Part shown: positions 1,928-20,200 of the stretch, one piece after another
Numbering within the stretch: the first letter of the stretch is position 1
Layout: each line of letters starts with the position of its first letter
Source: Erysipelotrichaceae bacterium
Lineage (GTDB): Bacteria > Bacillota_I > Bacilli_A > Erysipelotrichales > Erysipelotrichaceae
DNA length: 34,535 nucleotides
NCBI GenBank assembly: GCA_017459795.1
Contig: JAFUCG010000048.1
Coordinates: 1 to 34,535 of the forward strand
Direction: 5' to 3'
Notes under the pieces: model-generated
Databases searched by the model: none
What the model was told of the DNA's origin: nothing
Seen by the model: only the letters and a program-made list of their open reading frames with translations
Program-made: the position numbers and the translations under genes

Positions 1928-2434
1928 TTAATGATTACTACTTGCACTTGCAGCTGCTGCTGAAGAATCAGAATCCTTATCATACTGGTTAATGGCCAGC
2001 ATAAGCAAAATTATGAGCTGCTCGTGATCTTCATCGTAAATGTTAATGTAATACCTCTTGGTTAACCTGAACAGTTCCTGATTTATTTCGGCGACAAGAT
2101 CATCATTTTCATCATAGATCTCATAGTCAAGAGCGAAGATGTCACCCTTGATGGTCCAGCCTAATTTATCAAGACTAAGTTCATGATGAAAGAAAGTAAA
2201 CTGCTGGTTGAGAGAATCAACGAATTCATCTCCCAGATAAATGTCATACTGTCTGAGAAACAGGGTAAAGTTCTTACAGACCTTACCGACATATTCCCCA
2301 TAATGTCTCAATTCTATTTCCGGTAATATCAGCGTCTTGTTTTCATAGGTATACACCGGAACATCGTTAGAGTCGTACAATTGGCCATCTGCATAGAACA
2401 GATGGAAGTTTTCTTTAAAATAATACTTAATCAT
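1928..2434 (-). CDS. LURP-one-related (LOR/YxjI-like) family protein
   Basis: This 168-residue protein fits the LURP-one-related family, a beta-barrel fold akin to tubby C-terminal domains. Visible hallmarks are the short N-terminal strands with FYADGQLYD, the central stretch around residues 90-115 (GWTIKGDIFALDYEIYDEND), and a KRYYINIYDE strand followed by a hydrophobic helix near residues 138-150. The family is widespread in Firmicutes and its biochemical role is unknown. The C-terminal tail is low complexity (Ser/Ala rich). The start has AAAGGAGG directly upstream. It is the first gene after the candidate manganese riboswitch and is followed after 14 bp by the large membrane protein. I am confident of the family, not of any function. 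Confidence 0.8.
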   Translation of the reverse strand: MIKYYFKENFHLFYADGQLYDSNDVPVYTYENKTLILPEIELRHYGEYVGKVCKNFTLFLRQYDIYLGDEFVDSLNQQFTFFHHELSLDKLGWTIKGDIFALDYEIYDENDDLVAEINQELFRLTKRYYINIYDEDHEQLIILLMLAINQYDKDSDSSAAAASASSNH

Positions 2435-2504
2435 AATAGCCTCCTTTACTAATCAACGCTGGCCAACAGGTGACCGAAACATGCTTTGCCGTATATGTGG
2501 AGAT

Positions 2505-2544
2505 TATATAAATAAAGACCCATACACAGCCTTGCATATGAGTC
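2505..2544 (-). terminator. Riboswitch-controlled terminator before the LOR gene
   Basis: On the minus strand GACTCATATGCA (2533-2544) can pair with TGTGTATGGGTC (2517-2528) over 12 positions including three G-U pairs, followed by TTTATTTATAT. Its 5' arm shares GACTCATATGC with the 3' arm of the aptamer closing helix, so the two folds exclude each other. Ligand binding would therefore favour read-through. Confidence 0.7.
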
Positions 2545-2620
2545 TCACAGTCTATAGTTTGCCGGGTTGCCCGATTGACGACATAACTGCACTTTCGTGC
2601 CTGTTACTCCCTCAGTAAGC
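2534..2620 (-). promoter_or_regulatory. Candidate yybP-ykoY manganese riboswitch
   Basis: Read on the minus strand, the leader has the parts I expect of the yybP-ykoY family (Mn2+ sensing): a GGGAGTAAC block just inside the closing helix, a hairpin GCAC-GAAA-GTGC enclosed by GTAAC/GTTAT, the conserved GTCGTCAAT, a GGGC...CCCGG element, and TGTGAGACTCA closing the structure. The closing helix pairs GCTTACTGAG (2611-2620) with CTCATATGC (2534-2542), with small interruptions. Helix arms were paired by eye. The family usually controls Mn2+ exporters or TerC/UPF0016-type membrane proteins, normally as an ON switch. Confidence 0.72.
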
Positions 2621-2622
2621 AT

Positions 2623-2650
2623 ATATTATCATATTCTGCAGAATTGTAAA
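2623..2650 (-). promoter_or_regulatory. Possible promoter of the Mn-riboswitch operon
   Basis: On the minus strand TTTACA (2645-2650) is separated by 16 bases from TAATAT (2623-2628). The predicted start falls at the 5' edge of the riboswitch. The match is modest. Confidence 0.4.
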
Positions 2651-9052: not shown

Positions 9053-9898
9053 TCACCTGCTTCTAATAACGCTTATGACATAGAATGCCACAAAGGCAAC
9101 CAGATCTGCTGCGACGATCGTTGAGCCTACCGGTGTACCATATAATATCGCAATTAATAAACCAATTGCGGCACATACTACTGATATTACTGCTGATGAG
9201 ATGGTAACCATCTTAAAGCTCTTGAACAGCTGCATTGATGTTTCTGCCGGAAAGATTACCAAAGCAGATATCAGTAAGGAACCGACAAGGTTCATTGCCA
9301 ATACTATTATAACAGCTATTACCGTAGCTAAACCAAGATTATATAACTCGGTATTCATGCCGGTTGACTTGGCAAAGGTTTCATCAAAGGTTATCGCAAA
9401 GATTCGGTTATACATTAATACAAATATTACTACTACCAGTAATGATAATATGACACATAGCCATACTTCTCCCTTGGTAAGAGTAAGAATTGAAGTTGAA
9501 CCAAATAATGTTGTACATACGTCGGCTGAAATATTGGCTGAAAAGGCTGTTACATTTAACAGAAGATAGCCTAAGGCCAGTGAACCAACCGATATCATGG
9601 CTATTTTGGCATCACCGTTTATCTTACTGCTTTGCCCCTGCTTCAGTAATAAAATGGCTGAAATAATGGTAACCGGTAAGATGATTATCATTTTTTCCTT
9701 TATGAGATTCAATACCATGGCAATGCACATGCCGCCAAATGCCACATGTGATAAACCGTCACCAATATATGAGAATCTCTTTAAAACCAGTGTTACGCCT
9801 AACAGTGAAGAACACAGAGCAATCAATATGCCAACAATAAAGGCATACTGAACAAACGGATATTTAAAATACACGGCTAAAGTAGTAAAGATATTCAT
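9053..9898 (-). CDS. znuB: Zinc ABC transporter permease ZnuB
   Basis: This 281-residue protein is an ABC-3 family metal permease with about eight membrane spans. Family marks include LVLKRFSYIGDGLSHVAFGG near residue 38-57, the ATPase-contacting LLLNVTAFSAN region and FDETFAKSTGMNTELYNL in the later cytoplasmic loop. It forms the zinc channel with ZnuA and ZnuC. Its start codon shares one base with the znuC stop region. Zinc, as against manganese, is inferred from the Zur-type repressor and from the histidine/acid-rich loop of the partner ZnuA. Confidence 0.92.
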   Translation of the reverse strand: MNIFTTLAVYFKYPFVQYAFIVGILIALCSSLLGVTLVLKRFSYIGDGLSHVAFGGMCIAMVLNLIKEKMIIILPVTIISAILLLKQGQSSKINGDAKIAMISVGSLALGYLLLNVTAFSANISADVCTTLFGSTSILTLTKGEVWLCVILSLLVVVIFVLMYNRIFAITFDETFAKSTGMNTELYNLGLATVIAVIIVLAMNLVGSLLISALVIFPAETSMQLFKSFKMVTISSAVISVVCAAIGLLIAILYGTPVGSTIVAADLVAFVAFYVISVIRSR

Positions 9899-10581
9899 CA
9901 GATATTACCACCTTTCCATTCCTTATATTCACTTACGGTTCCATAAAAGTTCTCATGATCATTCAGCATTAAGACATGCTTTGATTCAGCTAAAGCTGTT
10001 TCAATGTCATGGGAAATCATGACAATGGCTGTTCCTTCATGATTCAGTTTACGGATGATGCTGTACATTTCCTTGGTTGTTTCATGGTCCAAAGAAGCAG
10101 AAGGTTCATCAAGAACGATCAGTTTCTTGGTAGCGCAAAGACAGCGGGCAAAAAGAACACGCTGCTGCTGGCCGCCTGATAATTCTCTGTAACTCTTATC
10201 TGCCAGTTCATAAATGTTCATTCTCTTCATGTTCTCTTCAGCCAGCTTTTTATGCTCAGCCCTATAGAAGAAACCTTTTCCAAGAAAACCCTGACAGCCT
10301 GAAAGTACGATTTCCCTTACTGTTGCCGGGAAGTCCTTCTGTACAAGGGTCTGTTGCGCCAGGTAGCCTGTTTCATGAGGTTTTAAGCCATCACCAAATT
10401 CTATGGTCCCGCTATAAGGCTTCTTTAAGCCTAACAGAACTTTTATTAAGGTTGATTTACCAACACCGTTTTCACCTATGACACAAAGATAGTCTCCTTC
10501 ATCAACCTTAAAGGAGAGCTTCTTAATTATTTCCACATTGTCATAACCGAAAGACAGTTCTTTCACATCAATAAGTGCCAT
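9898..10581 (-). CDS. znuC: Zinc ABC transporter ATPase ZnuC
   Basis: The 227-residue ATPase has Walker A GENGVGKST, a Q-loop GYLAQQ, signature LSGGQQQR, Walker B LIVLDEPSASLD and switch histidine in MISHD. The length and the short helical domain match the metal-type ABC ATPases (ZnuC/AdcC). It energises uptake through ZnuB and overlaps both flanking genes by a single base, giving a compact, translationally coupled operon. Confidence 0.94.
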   Translation of the reverse strand: MALIDVKELSFGYDNVEIIKKLSFKVDEGDYLCVIGENGVGKSTLIKVLLGLKKPYSGTIEFGDGLKPHETGYLAQQTLVQKDFPATVREIVLSGCQGFLGKGFFYRAEHKKLAEENMKRMNIYELADKSYRELSGGQQQRVLFARCLCATKKLIVLDEPSASLDHETTKEMYSIIRKLNHEGTAIVMISHDIETALAESKHVLMLNDHENFYGTVSEYKEWKGGNI

Positions 10582-11522
10582 TAATTCAATACCTTCTTCA
10601 ATACTTCCAGATTGCTGCTCATTACATCGAGATAACTCCTGTTATCTGCTAATGTTGTTGACTGTAATGAGTCAAGCGATTCAATTATCTGATTCTTGTT
10701 TACAGTACTGTTAATTACCGCATTGGCAATCTTTTCCTTACTGTTTTCCAGAACCATTACATATTTAAGATTTAATTCGTCAGTCTTTTCTGCCAGGAAC
10801 TTTATGGTTTCAAAACTGGCTTCAGATTCAGCTGAGCAACCTTTAAAGGCTGCGTAGTAGTCAATACCATAGTCGTCAACAAGATATCTGAATGGGAATC
10901 TGTCCGCAAATAACAGTACCTTCTTACTGCTGCTTGAAACAGCTTTTTCATATTCAGCATCAAGCTTGTCCAATTCATTAATATATCTGTCATAGTTAGC
11001 CTGATACTTATCCTTATTATCAGAATCTAACTTTACCAGTTCATTAAGGATGTTCTCACATGAAGCCTTTGTGTTTTTCAAAGAAAGCCAGATGTGTTCA
11101 TCAAACTCTCCTTCTTCATGTACTTGCTCGTGCTCATCTTCCTGCATGCCTTCCTTTTCTTCTTCCTGTTTCAGAAGGTCTTCAATGCTTTCCTTGACAC
11201 TGAAGGAATTAAGCTTCTTATTCTCCTTTAATATGTCTTCGATCCATTCATCGGACTCGCCACCATTATATATAAACAGATCACTGTCAGTTATCTTAAT
11301 GATATCAGAAGCAGAAGCCTGATAGTTATGCAGGTCTACACCCTTATTCATTAACAGAGTCAGTTCAATACCTTCGCTGTCACCAACGATTTCTCTTACC
11401 CAGTCATATAAAGGGAAGATGGTTACTACAACTGACTTCTTATCATTTTTAGCTGATTCATGATTACCGCAGCCACTTAATATTAACATTAATACCATTA
11501 ACAGGCAGACTATTCTTTTCAT
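10581..11522 (-). CDS. znuA: Zinc-binding lipoprotein ZnuA (cluster A-I)
   Basis: The 313-residue protein has a lipobox (LSGC, C18) followed by a cluster A-I metal-binding fold. Candidate ligands are H65 (in DLHNYQ) and H143 (in FDEHIW). Between them is a flexible acidic loop with H131 and H135 (about residues 118-142), typical of zinc rather than manganese carriers. The canonical third histidine position reads FADRFPF (205-211) and holds no histidine, a variant I know from some clostridial relatives. It scavenges zinc outside the membrane for ZnuBC. It begins within the stop codon of zur (ATGA overlap). Confidence 0.92.
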   Translation of the reverse strand: MKRIVCLLMVLMLILSGCGNHESAKNDKKSVVVTIFPLYDWVREIVGDSEGIELTLLMNKGVDLHNYQASASDIIKITDSDLFIYNGGESDEWIEDILKENKKLNSFSVKESIEDLLKQEEEKEGMQEDEHEQVHEEGEFDEHIWLSLKNTKASCENILNELVKLDSDNKDKYQANYDRYINELDKLDAEYEKAVSSSSKKVLLFADRFPFRYLVDDYGIDYYAAFKGCSAESEASFETIKFLAEKTDELNLKYVMVLENSKEKIANAVINSTVNKNQIIESLDSLQSTTLADNRSYLDVMSSNLEVLKKVLN

Positions 11523-14292: not shown

Positions 14293-15512
14293 TGAATAAC
14301 GGAAGAAATAATCACCAGACAAGAATCGTAATTATCGGAAGTCTGGTTCTGGCCATAATTCTTGTGGCTGGAACAATGTGGATGGGCGATCATGCCAGAA
14401 AAGACACCGAAGAGGCCGTCAGAGAAGTAAAACAGGACATGGAAAGCAGTAAGCCGATGGACCGCTTATTATGTGGCGATGTAGGCTTCGGTAAGACGGA
14501 AGTAGCCATGGTTGCGGCCTTTAAGGCCATTAATGACCTCAAGCAGGTTGCCTATTTATGTCCTACAACCATTCTTTCCCGCCAGCACTACAATACCTTT
14601 GTGGAAAGATTCAAGGATTTCCCGGTAAAGATCGCTCTTATCAACCGTTTCGTGGTGGAAAGTGAACAGAAGAGAATCTTACAGGAAGAGGAAGAGATAT
14701 ATCCAAGCGACATGACCGTCTTGATCGTTGATGATGATCCGGTTGCCTGCCAGCACGCTCAGCTGGTGCTGGAAAAAGCCGGCATTGCCTCAGAAATGGC
14801 AAGTTCTGGCAAACAGGCTATTAACATGGTTAAACTGCGTCATGCCCGAATGGAGCCATATAATCTGATTCTTGTGGACTGGAAAATGCCTGAAATGGAC
14901 GGTGTGGAAACCACAAGGCAGATACGTGAAGAAATTGGAAACGAATCCGCAATCATTATTTTGACTGCATACCGTTGGGATGATGTCTTAGAAGAAGCAC
15001 TTAATGCCGGCGTTGACAGTTTCCTACCAAAGCCGTTATTCGCAACAGCTGTTCTGGAAGAATTCGAGTCCGCATTGAAACGCAAGGACATTACCTCCCT
15101 GAAACAGCACGCTAAGGCTGATCTAACAGGAAGACACATTCTTCTGGCAGAAGACATTGATGTTAACGCTGAAATCATCAGAATGGTTCTGCAGATGAGA
15201 AAAATGGAAGTTGACAGAGCAGAGAACGGTAAAAAGGCAGTTGAATTATTCTCTGAACATCCTGAAGGCTACTATGATGCCATTCTGATGGACATGCGCA
15301 TGCCGGAAATGGATGGCTTAGAAGCAACCCGTACGATCCGTGCCATGGAACATAATGACGCTATGACTACTCCAATTATTGTCCTTACAGCTAATGCATT
15401 TGATGAAGATGTACAGCGCAGCATGCAGGCTGGTTTAAACGCTCATCTTTCAAAACCGGTACAGCCGGAACTGCTGTTTGAAACACTGGAAAGCTTAATT
15501 AAAAACAAGTAA
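14292..15512 (+). CDS. Chimeric hybrid-kinase remnant: membrane anchor, Mfd fragment, two receiver domains
   Basis: The 406-residue product has three parts. Residues 1-43 are a short basic N-terminus, one membrane span (about 11-29) and RKDTEEAV, which I recognise from the start of a hybrid sensor kinase family. Residues 44-132 are a copy of Mfd residues 599-687, including its Walker [10 protein letters not shown] (62-70). Residues 141-262 and 281-404 are two receiver domains. REC1 has acidic D147/D148, phosphoacceptor D196 in [11 protein letters not shown] and K247; REC2 has E287/D288, D334 and K388. The sensor, dimerisation/histidine and ATPase parts of the kinase are all absent. With one span and an inside N-terminus the receivers would end up outside the cell, so the full-length product is probably not a working regulator. 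An internal ATG at 14712 (M141) could give a soluble two-receiver protein. It follows the HTH gene with a TAATG overlap. Confidence 0.8.
14419..14688 (+). repeat. 270-bp inverted copy of an internal mfd segment
   Basis: Bases 14419-14688 equal the reverse complement of 18564-18833 at 266 of 270 positions, with no gaps. The differences are at 14480, 14486 and 14489 (all synonymous) and 14617 (Gly codon in mfd, Asp codon here). Similarity stops abruptly at both ends except for five more matching bases on the left (14413-14417). I see no target-site duplication, terminal inverted repeat or transposase. Confidence 0.95.
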
Positions 15513-16052: not shown

Positions 16053-16535
16053 TCATTTATTCTTTTTCTTTTCCATTAATACAGCCATTTCAATTAAAAC
16101 AATACCAACCAGCAGTCCGGATATCAGAAATATTTTCCCATTAATAGTTGTTAATGAAGCAAGAACGAATCCGATCATCGGAATATGAAAGGCAACCTTT
16201 CCAATGTAGAAGAGCCAGGAAACAGGAATGATGTCTTCCTTTTCATTGGCATCTCCCTTGGTAATGAACTGACGCTTTGTGGCATCAATTTCTATTACTC
16301 TGTGCGTTGTAGGAACAGTTGACTCTCTGTTGGCATAGAAAGTAATTATGTCTCCGGTCTTTATGTTTTCCGGCTTTTCATTACTTACATAAATGATACT
16401 GCCAACCGGCAATGTAGGTTCCATGCTGCCGGACTGTATGACATATTTATCAAACGGTAATATTAGTAAAATCGAAATAATAATTATTATGCCGATTACT
16501 ATCATTCCCAGAAATCTCATTATTTTAGCCAACAT
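16053..16535 (-). CDS. Signal peptidase I, ER/SipW type
   Basis: The 160-residue protein has an N-terminal span (about residues 8-27), the catalytic SGSMEPTLPVGS (S37), THRVI with H78 in place of the bacterial lysine, then KGDANEKED, and a second span near the C-terminus. The Ser-His dyad and the two flanking spans are those of the SipW/archaeal/ER branch, which processes TasA-like or other special secreted proteins in Gram-positives. No such substrate gene is in view. AGGAGA precedes the ATG. A terminator separates it from divIC upstream. Confidence 0.88.
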   Translation of the reverse strand: MLAKIMRFLGMIVIGIIIIISILLILPFDKYVIQSGSMEPTLPVGSIIYVSNEKPENIKTGDIITFYANRESTVPTTHRVIEIDATKRQFITKGDANEKEDIIPVSWLFYIGKVAFHIPMIGFVLASLTTINGKIFLISGLLVGIVLIEMAVLMEKKKNK

Positions 16536-17221: not shown

Positions 17222-20200
17222 TTTCTTTCACCCATTCTCTCAACTATTTCCATGGCCTTGGTAAGATACTGCAGCCAGTTCTTTCGCTTAAGGAATATTA
17301 ACGCTATCTTATTATGATTATAACGCAGTTTTATGTCTGATGAGAGATTCATGATTTCCTCAAACAGCTTGACCCCGTCAACGTTCTGACTGAATTCTTC
17401 AGACAGAACCAGTCTGGATTCCTTTTCCAGTTCGTCAAAACGGTCAAAACAGTAATTATTCATCATGACTTCAACCCGTTTCTTTTCAAACAGCAGCTTT
17501 ACGGCGTTAGGCAGTTTACCGTAACGGTCCGTTATCTCTTCTTCAAGATCATTTAACTGCTTAATGGTTTTTAACTTATCAATGCGCTGATACAGGGTTA
17601 TCTTTTCATAATCCTGTGGGGCAAAGTTCTCTGGAATGTAGCCGTCTACGCCATCGATCTTCTTCTGAACAAGCTCTTCATGGGGAACATAGATGCCCTT
17701 TTTTTCATTCAATGCATCCTGTAACATTTCCAGATACATGTCCATGCCTACGGTATTAATGAAACCTGCCTGTTTCTCACCTAATAAGTCTCCCGCTCCT
17801 CTGATCGTCAGATCTCGCATGGCGATCTTATAGCCGGAACCTAATTCAGTAAAGTCCTTAATGGCCTGTAGTCTCTTGGTAGCTACTTCTGACAACTGTC
17901 TTTGCGGGTCATGCATCAGATAGGCATAGGCGATCCTGTCACTTCTGCCTACTCGGCCTCTGATCTGATATAACTGTGATAAACCGAATGTATCGGCCTT
18001 ATCGATGATGATCGTATTGGCGTTGGAAATGTCGATGCCTGTTTCAATGATGGTGGTACATACCAATACATCATAGTCACCGTTAATGAAGTGATACATG
18101 ACCTCTTCTATTTCTTCCCTGTTCATTTGCCCGTGGGCAACCCCTACTCTGGCATCCGGCAGTTCTATTTCCAGCTTAGCTGCCAGTTCATATATTGAAG
18201 TAGTGTTGTTATGGAGGTAGAATACCTGACCCTTTCTGGCCAGCTCTCTTTGGATGACTTCCTTTATGAGATACTCATTCTTTTCAACAACATAGGTCTG
18301 AATCGGCATTCTGTTCATTGGCGGGGTATCCAGTTGTGATAATGACATTACCCCGATTAGTGACATCTGAAGAGTTCTTGGAATAGGTGTAGCTGATAAG
18401 GACAGTACATCTATGGTTCTCTTTAATTCCTTGATCTTTTCCTTGGCCTGTACGCCAAAACGCTGCTCTTCATCTATTATTAATAAGCCCAAATCTTCAA
18501 ACTTTACATCTTCACTTAATAATCTGTGTGTACCAATGAGAATATCTATTTTCCCTTCCTTAACTTCCTGTAAGATTCTCTTCTGTTCACTTTCCACCAC
18601 GAAACGGTTGATAAGAGCGATCTTTACCGGGAAACCCTTGAATCTTTCCACAAAGGTATTGTAGTGCTGGCGGGAAAGAATGGTTGTAGGACATAAATAG
18701 GCAACCTGCTTGAGGTCATTAATGGCCTTAAAGGCCGCAACCATGGCTACTTCCGTCTTACCAAAACCTACGTCGCCACATAATAAGCGGTCCATCGGCT
18801 TACTGCTTTCCATGTCCTGTTTTACTTCTCTGATGGCCTTCTTCTGGTCTCTGGTGAGTTCATATTCAAAGTTCTTCTCAAACTCCTTCATTCTTTCGTC
18901 ATCTTTTGAGAAGGCAAAACCAATGTTCTTTTCGCGGTCAGAATATAGCTGGACCAGTCTGGCTGCGATGTTTTCCACATCTTCCTTCAGCTTTTCCTTG
19001 GTCTTGTTCCAGACATTGGAACCAATCTTATTTAATCTGATGCCAACTCCTTCGGAACCGACATACTTTCTGACAAGCTTGAACTGTTCCAGTGGTACCA
19101 GTAATTCATCGTCGTCCTTATACAGTATTCTCAGATAGTCACGGTGGTGTCCCCTGATTTCTCTGGTTACGATGCCCTGATATCTGCCAATGCCATATTG
19201 ATTATGAACAACATAATCTCCCTCATTAAGATCCTGATAGTCATCCAGCTGAATGGCTTCATTGAACTTACGGGAATAACGGCCCTTCTTAATGTTTACG
19301 CCAAACAGTTCTCTGGCAGTCAATACTATTACATCATCAAAACTGAAGCCTTCTTCAAAGAGTTCAGGCATGAATGTAACAACATCCTTAGCGATGATCT
19401 CACGGTTGTACATCTCTTCTGTGATCATCTTCTGGTTGTTCTCATTAAGAGCCAGTACAACTTTTCTGATCTTGGTATATCTGAGTATTTCATCAACTAA
19501 CTTGGCAATTGGCAAATTAGGGAAATACATTGGCTTAATGCCACTGGTGATCGGATGCTTGTAGTCTGAGAATAAGCCGATGTTATAAACATCATGACTG
19601 TCTATGATGCGGTGATAGTCGCCATAGACGCTGTAGTAACATAAACCATTACCTGCTTCAAAGGTTTCTCTGATGAAATCGGTTGTTTCTTCAGTGAGCT
19701 GAGTTACATTCTGTTCTATTTCACTGCCGGTAGATAGGATGATGTCTGGTTCATCAATGTAATCAAGGAAGTTACTTGTTTCATTGAAGAAGCATCTGTA
19801 ACGGTAGAGATAATGTTCAAAAATGTGGTTTTTGAGATAATCTATGTCTCTTTCCACATTGCCTCTTAATTCATCAGGATAGTCACATCTCTTCAGATCT
19901 CTTTCCAGTTGTGTTCTGATTTTCTTTTCAACTTCCTCAAAGTCTTCGCTGTAAATGAGGATACTGGCAGGAACCAGTTCAACACTGTCTACCTTTTTAA
20001 TCGTTCGCTGATCAGACAGATTAAAGAATCTGATACTGTCGATCTCATCATCAAAGAATTCTATTCTGACCGGATCATTCTCCTGAATGGTAAATACATC
20101 TATTACATCACCACGGCTGCTGAAAGTAAGCGGCTGGTCTACTCTGTTGGTATAACGGTAGCCGCTTTCGATTAACAGGTTACGCAGTTCAGACATGCTG

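Follow-up and report, generated by a model that had tools for sequence, protein, structure and literature searches.

The minus strand of the window (the whole 34,535-nucleotide stretch of Erysipelotrichaceae DNA analyzed here) carries a leader that sequence comparison indicates is real and very probably functional. The account that best explains the whole, and one that we consider probable, is that of a yybP-ykoY riboswitch homologue without helix P4, serving as a Mn2+-responsive ON switch for a membrane module. The targets of this leader are new and conserved; the usual first gene among them encodes a flotillin (SPFH) protein, which has been lost from the window's operon, and both open reading frames that remain downstream of the leader are intact. 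The span 1928-2650, to which the initial annotation assigned the system, does hold the leader and the LURP-like gene, but the 526-aa gene lies outside it. The features, all on the minus strand, are as follows.

2623-2650: promoter-like site, TTTACA (from 2650), 16 nt, TAATAT (to 2623), just after a NUDIX gene.
2532-2615: yybP-ykoY-like aptamer, a three-way junction of P1.1, P1.2, P2, P3.1, and P3.2 without P4, supported by covariation in 17 related leaders and by 94.8 bits with covariance model R1, whose training set includes the window sequence itself.
2605-2610: 5' strand of L1, GGAGUA, facing GAGA at 2546-2543; invariant in the operon-leader alignment.
2573-2578: L3, UCAAUC, assigned from the sequence and published L3 sequences (PMC6754395).
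2515-2546: terminator-like hairpin T1, then UAUUUAUAUA; the 5' arm includes the 3' strand of P1.1 (2542-2539); from consensus scan and folding.
2488-2530: alternative antiterminator hairpin GCUGUGUAUGG/CCACAUAUACGGC, exclusive with T1; from folding.
1928-2434: 168-aa LOR/tubby-like protein, with sub-threshold Pfam matches, kept in the operons of relatives.
333-1913: 526-aa membrane protein, predicted to have three N-terminal helices and a large beta-rich domain, and without a Pfam family.

Read by eye against published L1 and L3 sequences (PMC6754395), the leader can be followed helix by helix. P1.1 (UGAG/CUCA, 2614-2611 with 2542-2539) and P1.2 (ACAG/CUGU) enclose the L1 internal loop, whose GGAGUA/xAGA pattern is present in the window and invariant or nearly so across the operon leaders; the P2 hairpin follows, then P3.1 (GUCG/CGGC) and a P3.2 capped by a GNRA loop. 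Within L3, the A at 2576 (UCA, 2578-2576) occupies the position of L. lactis A41, the Mn-sensing adenosine (PMC6754395); the crystallized Mn2+ binders read UCA41AUUC in L. lactis and ACA48UACU in X. oryzae (PMC6754395). The likeness to the known class (RF00080; L. lactis yoaB, X. oryzae, E. coli mntP) thus extends to the P1.1 switch helix, L1, P1.2, P3.2, an L3 with the Mn-sensing A, a terminator competing with P1.1, and the occurrence of related leaders before mntP and P-type ATPase genes. The window leader differs in its escape from Rfam detection, in an L3 of 6 nt where crystallized members have 7, and in the SPFH, LOR-like, and 526-aa genes that leaders of its type precede. It also has no P4 helix and hence no four-way junction, a short linker standing in its place; for this reason we class it as a divergent homologue that falls outside the RF00080 model. 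Loss of P4 is not in itself new, since a passage in PMC9495176 reports a three-way junction for the S. pneumoniae mgtA yybP-ykoY riboswitch, which controls a Mn2+/Ca2+ ATPase (the passage cites Martin 2019); the likeness there is taken from that description, and the targets and expression platform are different. Energy-only folding of the bare leader does not yield the aptamer. The promoter-like site is weak by consensus scan, with 9 of 12 consensus positions matched and one site found where shuffles give 1.3.

A covariance search with RF00080, proposed earlier as a check, stayed below the cut-off in the window and listed no match even at E<10 when the leader was searched as an isolated 301-base stretch. 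Four weak matches (9 to 15.5 bits) occur elsewhere in the same genome, the window leader not being among them. This silence carries little weight, because RF00080 is nearly blind in this lineage: 0 of 60 relatives exceed the 45-bit cut-off, and the best match among them, at 33 bits, lies upstream of a gene that resembles mntP in sequence. The assignment to yybP-ykoY therefore fails by Rfam score and stands by homology, through covariance models that link the operon leaders to those of mntP and P-type ATPase genes and to the E. coli mntP leader. Seven operon leaders from the genus were aligned to build model R1. Among sequences not used to train it, R1 picks up nine leaders that precede mntP-like or P-type ATPase genes (E 5e-11 to 6e-5), and a further one upstream of a PiT gene (E 2.5e-16). 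R1 alone recovers neither the E. coli mntP nor the alx leader; the pooled model R2 misses alx and recovers the mntP riboswitch, a validated Mn2+ switch, at 19.8 bits (E 0.0013), in a match that ends 136 nt upstream of the annotated mntP start. Of 273 genomes in the family, 199 contain R2 matches at E<=0.001. In the 17-leader alignment, which was fitted to the structure under test and so favors the pairing counts, double-sided changes occur at 15 of 23 pairs, and 95.5% of cells are paired, compared with 30-48% when partners are slid. A weak R1 match elsewhere in the window (16311-16408, minus strand; 12.9 bits, E 0.48) was taken as chance.

The competition between terminator and closing helix described in the initial annotation is borne out, in that the 5' arm of T1 contains the 3' strand of P1.1. 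T1 has a folding energy of -16.7 kcal/mol (z -3.4), no shuffle being equally stable, and consensus scanning finds one terminator-like site where shuffles give 0.2; its U-tract is imperfect. By folding, the 3' arm of T1 can pair instead with 2500-2488. The fold of 2540-2470 that contains this antiterminator reaches -23.8 kcal/mol (z -5.0), and 27 of 500 shuffles equal or exceed the window's antiterminator score. In relatives (for example, L050, L048, L249, and L220), a second terminator has a 5' arm complementary to the 3' arm of the first hairpin, so that a chain of P1.1, first hairpin, antiterminator, and terminator can be drawn, from which an ON switch is predicted. A script did not see the antiterminator complementarity in L252-L255, nor, by automatic choice, in L047, and the second terminator is missing from the window's platform. 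The L. lactis riboswitch is an ON switch acting through P1.1 (PMC11087558), and this analogy, together with the arrangement of the leader, supports the earlier reading of the leader as an ON switch; we infer the ON direction, by antitermination, on the same grounds. Mn2+ is our best guess for the ligand. It would most likely bind between L1 (GGAGUA/GAGA) and L3 (UCA...) and stabilize the weak P1.1 helix (UGAG/CUCA); with P1.1 stable, T1 would be deprived of the P1.1 3' strand, and the freed 3' arm of T1 could then pair with the downstream antiterminator strand, allowing transcription to go on. High Mn2+ would in this way switch the operon on.

Homologous operons, which the initial annotation had named as the place where its reading might fail, do carry the leader. 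Close relatives here are Erysipelotrichaceae assemblies, mostly from ruminant gut, and each of the seven genus genomes with a readable locus (G000, the window's own, and G001, G002, G005, G006, G007, and G008) has the leader in front of this operon. The order in G005-G008 is leader, SPFH gene (Band_7 and Flot), LOR-like gene, and 526-aa gene, with a DUF2500-type gene preceding the last in two of the four; G002 has an 85-aa gene between the leader and the 526-aa gene. The two genes first read as targets are thus downstream as described, but the usual first gene is the flotillin, which is missing from the operon in both the window and G001. Such operons resemble those of the bacterial flotillins FloT and FloA in their Band_7 and Flot protein, and the window differs from them by having lost it. 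Leaders of this kind also precede SPFH genes in g3, g5, g26, and g49, and they are found before six of six SPFH orthologues of at least 80% identity and 0 of 15 more distant ones. Of 20 full-length 526-aa homologues in genus g49, 16 have the leader directly in front of them, and an SPFH-like gene follows in 4 of those 16 cases (one checked by Pfam). A tree of 22 homologues of the 526-aa protein places the leader-bearing ones in one group with full support, and no leaders were found before homologues outside this clade. The family includes leaderless branches, and some leaderless members found after the tree was made belong by identity with the leader-bearing group. The pairing of switch, SPFH gene, and 526-aa gene in two gene orders supports a functional link. 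Literature text searches found no riboswitch control of flotillin genes, and found no SPFH, phosphate, or exchanger targets reported for the class, whose primary papers lay outside the search.

Neither remaining protein of the window's operon is readily named. For the first, the LURP-one label is weak, both Pfam matches being below threshold (LOR, PF04525, at 19.2 bits where the cut-off is 24.5; Tubby_C_like, at 21.2 where it is 24.4), and the copy in G006 scores 18.5 bits to LOR; the reading frame itself holds. Its structure model (pLDDT 55) is too poor for use. The 526-aa protein has no Pfam, NCBIfam, or PDB match; its structure model (pLDDT 87) has the three predicted N-terminal helices and the large beta-rich part, and a fold search gave weak all-beta resemblances with TM-scores of 0.25 or lower, which were rejected. 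We infer a membrane role for the operon's proteins from the SPFH association and from B. subtilis, where flotillin FloA co-purifies with the TerC protein MeeY, which is under Mn-riboswitch control, and both FloT and FloA co-purify with MeeF (PMC10550928). The targets would then make up a membrane module, which in most relatives combines an SPFH/flotillin gene with those for the LOR-like and 526-aa proteins; where the SPFH gene is gone, as in the window's species, the switch would drive the LOR-like and 526-aa genes directly. The encoded proteins may help the envelope to withstand an excess of manganese.

The related leaders fall into two types by L3. Among 147 distinct parsed leaders, drawn from the best-scoring matches and related by descent, 92 of 99 with an ACA-type L3 precede mntP or P-type ATPase genes; the UCA type in the same set precedes SPFH, Na/Pi, PiT, Na/Ca-exchanger, or 526-aa genes, with one P-type ATPase and no mntP. 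This split is a pattern in the sequences, not proof of different ligands. The window's L3 is of the UCA type, like that of L. lactis. Some g49 leaders have ACA behind a G-C closing pair, so the border between types is not sharp. Both types co-occur within one genome, and the L3 of SPFH leaders is often 6 nt long. The manganese response proposed earlier is accordingly wider than first read, as related leaders precede phosphate transporters and Na/Ca exchangers.

Three other explanations deserve consideration. Chance resemblance, in which an ordinary attenuator without ion sensing happens to look like the class, could appeal to the missing Rfam match, yet it must then account for a conserved structure with covariation, for the models' recovery of leaders of Mn exporters and of the E. 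coli mntP leader, and for leaders across most of the family's genomes; we find it barely credible. It is also improbable, if somewhat less so, that the aptamer works while the window's operon is a remnant left when SPFH was deleted, its switch now without meaningful output. The SPFH gene is indeed gone from that operon, none being found elsewhere in the window's genome at E<=1e-60, and the window has no second terminator. Against decay, however, the leader and both reading frames are nearly unchanged between the window and G001 (protein identity 94% for the 526-aa protein, 99% for the LOR-like protein), and g49 has the 526-aa gene alone as first target.

An unlikely explanation, though the strongest of the three, is that the sub-type with a G-C-closed L3 descends from the Mn2+ riboswitch with altered specificity, for example for Ca2+ or for Ca2+ and Mn2+ together. 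That would explain the phosphate-transporter, Na/Ca-exchanger, and scaffold targets, and it is in keeping with the near-absence of UCA-type leaders before Mn exporters while ACA-type leaders cluster there, with the presence of both types in the same genome, with the frequent 6-nt L3 of SPFH leaders, and with the response to both Ca2+ and Mn2+ that the passage in PMC9495176 reports for the three-way-junction member of S. pneumoniae. Yet the Mn2+ switch of L. lactis itself has a UCA-type L3 (PMC6754395), the adenosine that coordinates the metal is retained, the leaders came from the best-scoring matches, and the split may merely reflect descent of two paralogous leaders. A Mn2+-responsive switch for a membrane module remains our preferred reading. 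A broader proposal, possible and on balance doubtful, would have one sub-type of this riboswitch fold in Erysipelotrichaceae taken over for a regulon of its own (genes for SPFH scaffolds, for the new 526-aa membrane family, for Na/Pi and PiT phosphate transporters, and for Na/Ca exchangers), possibly with changed ion preference, and controlling a manganese- or divalent-ion-responsive system that organizes the membrane.

On the preferred reading, a whole bacterial family would carry Mn-type riboswitches missed by Rfam's model, and conserved regulation would connect metal homeostasis with flotillin/SPFH scaffolds and with a family of membrane proteins that has no name. The membrane proteins of the operon probably take part in how the cell responds when manganese is in excess, and genes without a function thereby become testable members of that response. 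The flotillin link fits the report of TerC proteins, one of them riboswitch-controlled, co-purifying with flotillins, and the presence of two L3 types in one genome makes ion specificity directly testable.

Several further loci were seen along the way. The window's own genome has a second leader of the same type (contig C157, L055 1501-1593, minus strand); a short membrane ORF follows it, together with a gene for a PiT (PHO4-type) phosphate transporter. The same genome also holds an ATPase leader, at L001 1496-1593. UCA-type leaders precede Na/Ca-exchanger-like genes at L120, L127, L158, L164, L169, L173, L179, L185, L186, and L191, and Na/Pi-cotransporter-like genes at L068, L080, L093, L094, L112, L116, L119, L161, L177, and L188; by Pfam, the L093 target is Na_Pi_cotrans with PhoU. 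At L117 and L139, the leaders are followed by ORFs that resemble TetR-type regulators in sequence.

Elsewhere in the window, a lysine riboswitch (RF00168; 3573-3745, plus strand; 79.5 bits) precedes genes for a solute-binding protein and an ABC transporter, an ordinary case. Positions 14413-14688 and 18564-18839 hold a 276-nt inverted copy (98%) of a piece of an mfd-like gene, in frame within a 406-aa ORF with response-regulator-like sequence; this could reflect a genuine insertion or else an artefact of assembly. Genes resembling a metal ABC importer (binding protein, ATPase, and permease, recognized by sequence only) occupy 9053-11522 on the minus strand, and in G006 a comparable group of genes is located upstream of the leader (L048 153-2674).
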